Notes under the pieces: generated by a model
The model's input: only the letters and a program-made list of their open reading frames with translations
Database searches by the model: none
Told to the model about the DNA's origin: nothing
Made by a program: the position numbers and the translations under genes
In this document: positions 26,953 through 29,804 of the stretch, one piece after another
How the letters are laid out: each line of letters begins with the position of its first letter
Position numbering within the stretch: the stretch's first letter is position 1
Source: Deltaproteobacteria bacterium
GTDB taxonomy: Bacteria > Desulfobacterota > Binatia > UTPRO1
Length of the DNA: 64,000 nucleotides
Assembly: GCA_020848745.1 (NCBI GenBank)
Contig: JADLHM010000059.1
Location: forward strand, 1-64,000
Direction of reading: 5' to 3'

Positions 26953-26981
26953 TTGTCGCTCTCGCGACCCGGTGGTAGCGT
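26953..26981 (+). promoter_or_regulatory. Promoter for ttuB-ttuA-trmI
   Basis: TTGTCG (26953-26958), 17-nt spacer, TAGCGT (26976-26981). The same -10 hexamer occurs at 29024. Predicted start about 19 nt before the ttuB ATG. Confidence 0.5.
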
Positions 26982-27006
26982 CCCGCGGTTTCGAGCACCC
27001 GCCGCG

Positions 27007-27207
27007 ATGCACGTCCGTCTCGAACCGCAAGGCAAGCAGCTCACCCTCGCCGGGCGCCGGCGCGTCGGCGATCTCGTCCAGTCGCTCGGCATCGTCGCGG
27101 GGACCGTCCTGGTCATCCGCGGCGACGAACTCCTGACCGACGACGAGTTCGTCGACGACGCCGACTCGATCGAGCTGCGTGCCGTCATCTCCGGAGGTGC
27201 CGCGTGA
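27007..27207 (+). CDS. ttuB: ThiS/MoaD/TtuB-like sulfur-carrier protein
   Basis: 66-residue beta-grasp protein (MHVRLEPQGKQLTLAGRRRVGDLV, then a ...ELRAVISGGAA end). In this family a C-terminal Gly-Gly is activated to a thiocarboxylate and delivers sulfur. Here Gly-Gly is followed by Ala-Ala, so trimming would be needed or the tail is tolerated. The assignment to TtuB rather than ThiS rests on the overlapping TtuA-like gene: its stop overlaps the next GTG as GTGA, and the Gly-Gly codons form that gene's Shine-Dalgarno. No thiazole or molybdopterin genes are near. Confidence 0.78.
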   Translation: MHVRLEPQGKQLTLAGRRRVGDLVQSLGIVAGTVLVIRGDELLTDDEFVDDADSIELRAVISGGAA

Positions 27208-28133
27208 AGTGCAAGCGGTGCGCCGAGAAGGCGATCGTCCAGCTCCGCAGCCACAATACGGCCTTCTGCAAACCGTGCTTCGTCTTCTTCTTCCAGCGCG
27301 GAGTCGAGCGTGCGATCACGCGCGAAGCGATGTTCAGCCACGAGGAGCGCATCCTCGTCGCCGTCTCCGGCGGCAAGGACAGCCTGGCGCTCTGGGACGC
27401 GCTGGTGAACCTCGGCTACGAGACCGAGGGCCTGTATCTGGGCCTCGGCATCGGCGACTATTCGAGCGCCTCCGAACGCAAGACGCGCGCGTTCGCCGAA
27501 CGGCGCGGCCTCCGGCTGCGGGTCGTCGCGCTCGACGAGACCGAGGACGGTCTCGGCATCCCGTCGGTCGCGGCGGCGACCCGCCGCCCGCCCTGCTCGG
27601 CCTGCGGAACCTTCAAGCGCCACCACTTCGACCGTGCCGCCCTGGCGGGAGGCTTCGCCGTGCTGGCGACCGGCCACAACCTCGACGACGAAGCCGCACG
27701 CCTCCTCGGCAACGTCATGCATTGGCAGCTCCCCTATCTCGCCAAGCAGCGACCGGTACTGACGCCGACCCACCCCCGCTTCGTGCGCAAAGTACGTCCG
27801 CTCTATCGGACGAGCGAGCTCGAGAGCGCGACCTACGCCTTCCTGCGCGGTATCGACTACGTCGTCGAGGAATGCCCGAACAGCCGCGGCGCGACCCAGC
27901 TCGTCTACAAGGACCTGCTGAACCGCCTCGAGCACACGATGCCGGGAAGCAAGCTCGCCTTCCTCGCCGATTTCCTGAGCCGCGGATCGCCGCTCTTCGC
28001 GACCGCGCCGGAAGCGGCGGACCTCGGCGAGTGCGAGCGCTGCGGCATGCCGTCGGCGGGCGAGATCTGTGGCTACTGCCGCCTGGTCGCCGAGGTCGGG
28101 CGCAGGCGCGCGCAGGCGGTGGCGCATTCCTGA
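27204..28133 (+). CDS. ttuA: TtuA-like tRNA 2-thiolation enzyme (TtcA/Ncs6 family)
   Basis: 309-residue PP-loop ATPase of the TIGR00269 group. Zinc-finger pairs at both ends (CKRCAEKA...CKPC and CERCGMPSAGEICGYC) frame the PP-loop VSGGKDSLALWD. Cysteines CSAC (about 131-134) and the later C in VEECPNS sit where TtuA binds its catalytic [4Fe-4S] cluster, and ATGHNLDDEA is present. In Thermus, TtuA makes 2-thiothymidine at tRNA position 54 using TtuB sulfur. GTG start with GGAGGT 5 nt upstream. Could also act like Ncs6 on U34. Confidence 0.85.
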   Translation: MKCKRCAEKAIVQLRSHNTAFCKPCFVFFFQRGVERAITREAMFSHEERILVAVSGGKDSLALWDALVNLGYETEGLYLGLGIGDYSSASERKTRAFAERRGLRLRVVALDETEDGLGIPSVAAATRRPPCSACGTFKRHHFDRAALAGGFAVLATGHNLDDEAARLLGNVMHWQLPYLAKQRPVLTPTHPRFVRKVRPLYRTSELESATYAFLRGIDYVVEECPNSRGATQLVYKDLLNRLEHTMPGSKLAFLADFLSRGSPLFATAPEAADLGECERCGMPSAGEICGYCRLVAEVGRRRAQAVAHS

Positions 28134-28140
28134 GCCGATC

Positions 28141-28986
28141 GTGACGCCGCAGGAGGAGTCGGCCCCGGACGCGAGCCGTGCGCTCTTGCGCGCAGGGGAC
28201 TCCGTCCTCTTCATCGACCGCAAAGCACGGCAGTATCTCCGTACGCTCCGTCCCGGCAAGCGCGTCAACGTCCGCGGGGCGACTTTCGCAGCCGAGGATC
28301 TGATCGGGCTGCCGGAGGGCACGGTCCTCCGGAGCTCCACCGGCGAGTACCTCCAGATTTTCCGACCGACCTACGCGCAGCTGATCCCGAACCTGCCGCG
28401 CCAGGCCCAGGTCATCTACCCGAAGGACGTCGGCACGATCGTGATGTGGGGCGACATCCATCCGGGCGCGCACGTCATCGAGGTCGGCGCCGGCCCCGGG
28501 GCGACCGCGATCGCGCTCCTGCGCGCCATCGGACCGACCGGGACGCTCACGACCTACGAGCTCCGCGAGGAGTTCGCGACGATGGCGCGGGACAACGTCA
28601 CGCGTTTCCACGGTCCGGCGCCGCAATGGACGATCAAGCTCCGCGATGCCTACGAAGGCTTCGACGAAACCGAGGTCGACCGCATGGTGATCGATCTCTC
28701 CGAGCCGTGGCGCGTGGTGCCGCACGCCGCACGCGCGCTCCGACCGGGCGGCGTCTTCATCGGATTCACCCCGACCGTGCTGCAACTGAAGCAGCTCGTC
28801 GACGAGCTGCGGGCGGGACCGTTCGCGGCCATCGAGGCGCTCGAGTCGCTCCAGCGCGGATGGCACGTGAAAGATCGCAGCGTCCGGCCCGAGCATCGCA
28901 TGGTCGCGCACAGCGGCTTCCTCGTCTTCGCGCGCCGTCTCGCCGCCATGCCGTCGTCCTCGACCGACGTCGCGCCGGGCGCCTGA
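28141..28986 (+). CDS. trmI: tRNA (adenine-N1)-methyltransferase TrmI
   Basis: Class I SAM methyltransferase that makes m1A58 in the tRNA T loop. The 281-residue protein has the N-terminal domain typical of TrmI, motif I HVIEVGAGPGATAIALL, the acidic TYELREEFA, and the motif IV-like VIDLSEPWR. The GTG at 28141 is chosen, 7 nt after the ttuA stop; the open frame upstream overlaps ttuA. Operon position suggests joint action on the T loop, where m1A58 promotes s2T54 formation in Thermus. Confidence 0.92.
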   Translation: MTPQEESAPDASRALLRAGDSVLFIDRKARQYLRTLRPGKRVNVRGATFAAEDLIGLPEGTVLRSSTGEYLQIFRPTYAQLIPNLPRQAQVIYPKDVGTIVMWGDIHPGAHVIEVGAGPGATAIALLRAIGPTGTLTTYELREEFATMARDNVTRFHGPAPQWTIKLRDAYEGFDETEVDRMVIDLSEPWRVVPHAARALRPGGVFIGFTPTVLQLKQLVDELRAGPFAAIEALESLQRGWHVKDRSVRPEHRMVAHSGFLVFARRLAAMPSSSTDVAPGA

Positions 28987-28999
28987 CGCCCCGATTTCG

Positions 29000-29029
29000 T
29001 TGACATCATTTCGCGCGCTGGTGTAGCGT
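29000..29029 (+). promoter_or_regulatory. Promoter for the second cyclo-ligase homologue
   Basis: Perfect TTGACA (29000-29005), 18-nt spacer, TAGCGT (29024-29029), 38 nt before the ATG at 29067. Confidence 0.6.
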
Positions 29030-29066: not shown

Positions 29067-29804
29067 ATGACCAAGGAAGATCTTCGCCGGAAGGTCTGGC
29101 AGCTGCTGGAGCACCATGCGGCGCAGCGTTTCCCGGGCGCCCGCGGACGCATTCCCAACTTCGTCGGCTCGGAGCGCGCAGCCACCCGCCTCGCCGAGCT
29201 CGCCGTCTGGAAGAAGGCGCGCACCATCAAGATGAGCCCCGACGCTCCGCAACTCGCGGTGCGCCGTCGCGCGCTCCTCGACGGCAAGGTCGTCTATCTC
29301 GCCGTTCCCGCCCTGCGCGCCGAGAAGTGCTTCATCGAGCTCGATCCGAAGCGTCTCGGCCGACGGGCATCGATGGCTGCGAGCCTGCTCGGCGCCGCGA
29401 AATACGGCCGCGCCGTCAGCGCCCGCGAGATCCGCGCCATCGATCTCGTGGTCTGCGGATCGGTCGCCGTCCGGCGCGACGGCACGCGTGTCGGCAAGGG
29501 CGGCGGCTTCGTCGACCTCGAGTACGCGCTGCTCCGCGAGGAGGGCAAGCTCAAGGAGACGACCCCGATCGTCACCACGGTCCATCCGCTGCAGATCGTC
29601 ACCGAGAAGGTCGCCATGCTGGCGCACGACATCCCGCTCGACTTCCTCGTGACGCCCTTCGAGGTGGTGGCGACACGCCCCGCCTTCCCGCGGCCGCGCG
29701 GCGTCTACTGGGACCTCCTCAAAGCCGCGCGCATCGAAGCCATCCCGTCGCTCCGCAAACGTCTGAAGCAGAGCTCGCCGGACCTTCCCTCCCGCCGGCT
29801 GTAG
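29067..29804 (+). CDS. 5-formyltetrahydrofolate cyclo-ligase homologue (divergent)
   Basis: 245-residue protein of the 5-FCL superfamily, distinct from the enzyme at 4164-4745. It has GKGGGFVDLEYALL in place of GxGxGxYD, and an N-terminal TKEDLRRKVWQLLEHH typical of the archaeal/MTHFSD-like branch. Folate activity is possible but not certain, because the usual Tyr of the motif is replaced by Val. Own promoter at 29000-29029; convergent with the membrane protein gene downstream. Confidence 0.8.
   Translation: MTKEDLRRKVWQLLEHHAAQRFPGARGRIPNFVGSERAATRLAELAVWKKARTIKMSPDAPQLAVRRRALLDGKVVYLAVPALRAEKCFIELDPKRLGRRASMAASLLGAAKYGRAVSAREIRAIDLVVCGSVAVRRDGTRVGKGGGFVDLEYALLREEGKLKETTPIVTTVHPLQIVTEKVAMLAHDIPLDFLVTPFEVVATRPAFPRPRGVYWDLLKAARIEAIPSLRKRLKQSSPDLPSRRL

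Follow-up and report, generated by a model that had tools for sequence, protein, structure and literature searches.

The window, i.e., the whole stretch of 64,000 nucleotides that was analysed, contains at 27007–28986 three genes for which sequence comparison confirms the products as a sulfur carrier resembling TtuB together with TtuA and TrmI, and which are predicted to form one compact operon preceded by a conserved promoter-like element (Table 1).

Table 1. Genes and signals of the ttuB-ttuA-trmI locus (positions in the window)
Feature	Position	Strand	Remarks
Promoter-like element TTGTCG-17-TAGCGT	26953..26981	+	25 nt 5' of ttuB start; conserved in family alignment
ttuB-like sulfur carrier, beta-grasp, 66 aa, ending ISGG-AA	27007..27207	+	Best solved relative T. 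thermophilus TtuB 5ztb_E, E=6e-8
GGAGGT, Gly63-Gly64 codons and likely Shine-Dalgarno of ttuA	27193..27198	+	6 nt 5' of ttuA start
Tail codons Ala65-Ala66	27199..27204	+	Two residues past Gly63-Gly64
Overlap of ttuA start and ttuB stop, GTGA	27204..27207	+	4 nt
ttuA, predicted tRNA-m5U54 2-sulfurtransferase, 309 aa	27204..28133	+	E=1e-87 to T. thermophilus TtuA 5gha, along its length
trmI, predicted tRNA m1A58 methyltransferase	28141..28986	+	E=5e-57 to Rv2118c; also matches other TrmI structures
Weak terminator-like hairpin	28977..28991	+	At trmI end

Position 26953, at which the preliminary description had the unit begin, is the first base of the -35-like TTGTCG, TAGCGT lying 17 nt further. 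The element is off consensus, as a standard sigma-70 scan gave no match; a -35/-10-like element is found at the equivalent place in 19 of the 27 Binatia loci having enough upstream DNA (L024 and L026 were left out), compared to a mean of 1.0 (maximum 5) in shuffled sequences and to none of 30 ttuA interiors. Together with the stop-start overlap and with the gap of only 7 nt between ttuA and trmI, this upholds the earlier proposal of one operon with one promoter. The gene downstream of trmI, at 29067, encodes a 5-formyltetrahydrofolate cyclo-ligase family protein and has a promoter-like element of its own (TTGACA-18-TAGCGT, 29000-29029); TAGCGT thus precedes both ttuB and this gene, and may be the usual -10 of the lineage.

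The enzyme identities originally assigned, i.e., sulfur carrier, thiolation enzyme and m1A58 methyltransferase, are borne out by homology to the structures of Thermus thermophilus TtuB and TtuA and of TrmI. The product of ttuA resembles TtuA over its full length, rather than NcsA or TtcA, being closer to T. thermophilus TtuA (298 bits) than to NcsA-type chains (100 bits), and reaches 276 bits with the NCBIfam model of Pyrococcus-type TtuA, under the strict cut-off of 450. It possesses the N- and C-terminal CxxC zinc pairs, the PP-loop SGGKDS, the cluster cysteines C131/C134/C224 and the active-site lysine K138 (K137 in T. thermophilus), and these cluster, PP-loop, CxxC and lysine residues are invariant across 30 aligned Binatia sequences; the predicted activity is very probably 2-thiolation at tRNA position 54. 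The trmI product, for which the GTG at 28141 was adopted as an uncertain start, contains the TrmI domains GCD14 (109 bits) and TrmI-like_N (44 bits), both above the Pfam cut-offs, and m1A58 methylation is very probably its predicted activity.

Full-length ttuA is present in 36 of the 78 genomes searched (that of the organism itself and its relatives) and in fragments in 2 more, a first tally of 48 genomes having included weak PP-loop matches; from these 36 genomes 30 Binatia loci were read, with the carrier readable in 29. The gene trmI lies directly 3' of ttuA in all 30 Binatia loci, in all 32 Actinomycetota loci with enough sequence to be testable and in 9 of the 43 remaining named loci, the 80 named loci being the best 80 of 580 confirmed ttuA loci, so that the sample leans to close relatives. 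L054-L056, which duplicate class genomes, were dropped from the tail, codon, gene-order and tree counts. In Thermus composti (L126) ttuB adjoins ttuA and trmI is absent within 4 kb, and on a quick TtuA tree with long branches the ttuA-trmI arrangement requires at least 5 changes. The ttuA-trmI order is old and has been kept in two distant lineages, Binatia and Actinomycetota.

The tail of the carrier and the likely ribosome-binding site of ttuA

With Pfam ThiS the carrier scores only below the cut-off, and its assignment as TtuB comes from homology and from its place, a carrier gene being found within 100 nt 5' of ttuA in 29 of the 30 Binatia loci. Solved TtuB and SAMP2-like chains align ending at the second glycine (5gha being a C-terminal mutant); the present gene product ends GGAA and would end in Gly-Gly only after trimming, and of these two additional residues the preliminary description had made no mention.

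The presence of a tail follows the overlap with ttuA. Indeed, all 17 Binatia carriers with a stop-start overlap bear 1–2 extra residues, as compared to 4 of the 12 without overlap, with one extra residue each, and in other phyla a tail is present in 34/34 overlapping versus 9/27 non-overlapping carriers (L058, ending SGGGG, was counted as tailed though its Gly-Gly is still terminal). Tree-independent pairs keep this direction (on average 3.8 versus 0, median p 0.125). A conserved signal in the tail letters was considered and rejected, as these vary freely.

The overlap is likewise associated with the choice of the first glycine codon, which in the 17 overlapping Binatia is invariably GGA (12) or GGG (5), the resulting GGAGG or GGGGG being located 3 or 6 bases 5' of the ttuA start, whereas the 12 non-overlapping Binatia have GGC or GGT and never GGA or GGG (Fisher p=2e-8, a value that, like the other raw p-values of the codon and tail contrasts, is inflated because the sequences are related). 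The background share of GGA plus GGG among glycine codons is 0.289. Over all phyla the first-codon contrast by spacing is 46/15 versus 5/22, L084 and L102, two of 90 rows giving tail data, having been omitted for an unclear ttuA start codon, and in tree-independent pairs it keeps the same direction (mean 5.5 versus 0.7, median p 0.125); of the 22 close-spaced cases in Actinomycetota, 11 do not obey the rule. Among 43 overlaps with a short tail, 35 have a spacer of 6 nt, and tailless carriers with a close ttuA, such as that of T. composti, also have GGAGG, located there 5 bases from the start. In the simplest reading of these data, ttuA has its ribosome-binding site in the Gly-Gly codons, and wherever the two genes overlap the required spacing comes from the tail. 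Shine-Dalgarno sites within upstream genes are described as a general occurrence (PMC2784483); the predicted site likewise lies at the 3' end of the preceding gene, but is here at the same time the codon pair of the reactive glycines.

C-terminal extensions are found also on other carriers of the class: in a survey of 20 Binatia genomes, in which 52 of the listed carrier matches were read (without L218), they are present in 16/19 MoaD, 14/20 CysO-like and 0/10 ThiS proteins. In the genome under study (G000), the MoaD protein terminates in SGG-NQ, the moaD stop overlapping the start of moaE in ATGA (L039:1492-1815, contig C77), a tail-with-overlap repeated in G001 and G002. On contig C13 (L040:8737-10727) a ThiF gene accompanies those for a CysO-like carrier ending AGG-AAARTRDE and for a CysM-type cysteine synthase; the carrier is tailed, its stop overlaps the cysM start (GTGA), and its glycine codons are GGCGGC. 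MoaD-MoaE fusions joined just past the Gly-Gly, which would need cleavage, occur in two Binatia (L174 and L227) and in T. composti (L189).

Proposed removal of the tail

The C-terminus of sulfur carriers is described as being adenylated and thiocarboxylated (PMC3980101, PMC8584467), and in the TtuA-TtuB structure it binds the unique Fe (PMC7138817). Since it is the C-terminus that is activated and that binds the unique iron of TtuA, the two extra residues must be lost. The genome contains the gene of a JAMM peptidase (L042:11044-11529, contig C77; Prok-JAB, 72 bits) at ~4.3 kb from moaD, and its product bears HSHP...SPTD, which we take to be the JAMM signature motif. In T. thermophilus, mutation of the JAMM gene reportedly lowers thiouridine to about half (PMC3980101), and the Deinococcus enzyme DRJAMM is described as cutting a MoaD-MoaE fusion after Gly-Gly (PMC8832034). 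The C77 JAMM protein is most likely the candidate enzyme that would trim pro-TtuB after Gly-Gly.

The distribution of JAMM does not follow that of the tails, a match of at least 50 bits being found in 36/47 tailed and 20/24 untailed cases (p=0.76) across 71 genomes, a set that excludes 7 ttuA genomes lacking tail data. Within Binatia, JAMM is present in 33 of the 36 genomes with full-length ttuA and in 39 of the 42 without, and its candidacy as a ttu-specific partner was rejected, as it is equally common without ttuA. The free variation of tail letters and lengths, and the 11 tailed draft genomes in which no JAMM match of at least 50 bits was found, would be compatible with removal of the tail by an unspecific carboxypeptidase instead of JAMM; we consider this possible but doubtful, because MoaD-MoaE fusions, found in this class too (L174, L227), require cleavage by an endopeptidase past the Gly-Gly, such as that attributed to DRJAMM in Deinococcus (PMC8832034), and because the tails of TtuB are 8–21 residues long at some loci.

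A different cluster of the same genome (L043:7281-12926, contig C89) comprises genes for a ThiF-like E1, a protein of 179 aa, another with a JAB domain and an AAA ATPase of proteasome type (250 bits with TIGR03689, under its cut-off), and possibly represents a ubiquitin-like conjugation or proteasome system.

Partner genes and the probable target nucleotide

Both accessory functions for which the preliminary description had suggested searching, namely a TrmFO or TrmA and an activating E1 enzyme, have a gene in the genome: TrmFO is present with 629 bits, as is a rhodanese-domain E1 (L041:8417-9616) that scores 575 bits with NCBIfam MoeB against a cut-off of 449, further ThiF-family genes being located on contigs C13 and C89. 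The T-loop determinants U54, C56 and A58 occur in all 29 distinct tRNAs (30 loci read from 46 matches), with U at position 60 in 21 of them, and the earlier statement that m1A58 promotes s2T54 in Thermus agrees with the coupling published for this genus (PMC6418473, PMC7912444). On the other hand, to call the cassette "dedicated" is too narrow, as the E1 and probably also the trimming peptidase would likely be common to other sulfur carriers.

The enzyme normally thiolating U34, MnmA, was not found in the draft genome, and NcsA is a relative of TtuA (NCBIfam, 102 bits), so that an NcsA-like TtuA acting on U34 rather than U54 had to be weighed. However, MnmA passes the cut-off in 72 of the 78 Binatia and in 31 of the 36 that bear ttuA, including the congeners G001 and G002; for this reason its lack in the draft is probably an assembly gap and U34, having a separate thiolase, an unlikely target of TtuA. 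Furthermore, TtuA models and chains yield 276–298 bits as opposed to about 100 for NcsA, and ttuA adjoins trmI, the gene of a T-loop enzyme. Following the class-wide MnmA survey, U34 thiolation was mostly rejected, and we hold it to be very improbable.

Proposed pathway, growth temperature and known systems

In the scheme that we propose, a single mRNA would encode pro-TtuB, TtuA and TrmI, and the ribosome ending ttuB would restart on ttuA, the GGAGG of the glycine codons acting as ribosome-binding site in this presumed coupling. The Shine-Dalgarno spacing and the overlapping stop and start would oblige the carrier to bear its two extra residues, which a peptidase, most likely the C77 JAMM protein, would strip to expose Gly64. 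The MoeB-rhodanese E1 would then adenylate Gly64, leading to the thiocarboxylate; m5U54 would be the product of TrmFO and m1A58 that of TrmI, and the [4Fe-4S] enzyme TtuA would move the sulfur to C2 of m5U54. The genes and their homology, the operon, the tail, the codon pattern and the presence of TrmFO, E1 and JAMM genes are observed; the scheme as a whole, with pro-TtuB trimmed and the T-loop thiolated at 54 by TtuA and methylated by TrmI, is in our judgement quite probable.

The best-known counterpart is the TtuA/TtuB/TtuC/TtuD pathway of s2T54 in T. thermophilus, with TrmFO and TrmI, with which the present system shares orthologous TtuA and TrmI, a homologous carrier, E1 and TrmFO, and the cluster and PP-loop residues. 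The differences are that trmI lies here inside the operon (in T. composti there is none within 4 kb), that the carrier is tailed and that many relatives are of non-thermal origin. Carriers matured by JAMM peptidases are also QbsE/QbsD and HcyS/HcyD, and CysO/Mec is a further pair for comparison. In the Deinococcus MoaD-MoaE protein (DR2607/DR0402) there are likewise residues past Gly-Gly described as needing removal before thiocarboxylation (PMC8832034), but the carrier here is one for tRNA thiolation, its tail is apparently tied to the downstream overlap and its peptidase is putative. No description of a ttuB-ttuA-trmI operon, of a tailed TtuB or of a Gly-Gly ribosome-binding site was found among open-access titles and abstracts. 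The pathway is therefore a known one, of which the gene arrangement and the pro-form carrier constitute a variant.

The view that the organism is a thermophile and for this reason has retained the cassette, as an adaptation to heat, is suggested by reviews in which m5s2U54 and TtuA are described in thermophiles (PMC8584467, PMC7912444), and by reports that genomes of the order UTPRO1 come from hydrothermal settings as well as from soil and that two other Binatota orders are thermal (PMC8262859). Against this, the genome of UTPRO1, the namesake of the genus, is described as originating from an anammox reactor kept at room temperature (PMC5460018). This genome carries the ttuB-ttuA-trmI operon (L054), and ttuA is also found in Nitrospira moscoviensis, in many Acidimicrobiia and in MAGs that by title are from soil and groundwater. 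The F_IVYWREL of the organism's own proteins (0.409–0.411) is intermediate, not clearly low in a class whose members range over 0.373 (G001), 0.419 (G002) and 0.433 (G010), but near the values of N. moscoviensis (0.403) and of three Acidimicrobiia loci (0.399) as against 0.454 for T. composti, this thermometer being weak because the gene calls are heuristic, the sets small and the class values spread. Partial 16S sequences of three ttuA-bearing class members have a GC content of 56.4% (L163), 57.8% (L164) and 59.9% (L165), which is low for a strong thermophile and speaks against a heat adaptation; as a general thermometer 16S GC was dropped, since of 26 genomes searched only 3 yielded the gene, in pieces, and the organism's own yielded none. 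Overall, a heat adaptation seems improbable. The association with high temperature made in the preliminary description is thus weak, and the growth temperature of relatives, to which it had drawn attention, gives a divided answer, the room-temperature source of UTPRO1 speaking against it and the hydrothermal sources within the order for it. The operon is a trait not restricted to hot organisms, and its origin may be thermal.

Reviews treat the s2T54 pathway as a trait of thermophiles; the present data place it in a unit of three genes that both Binatia and Actinomycetota have retained, and many of these bacteria come from ordinary habitats. As a tentative generalisation, which we regard as more speculative than the scheme itself, the Gly-Gly codons of carriers might double in many bacteria as the ribosome-binding site of the partner enzyme, forcing the synthesis of inactive pro-proteins (TtuB and perhaps some MoaD), so that a peptidase would gate T-loop thiolation at moderate temperature. 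For carriers that continue past their Gly-Gly, the overlap with the partner gene and the use of the glycine codons as ribosome-binding site would offer a simple cause.
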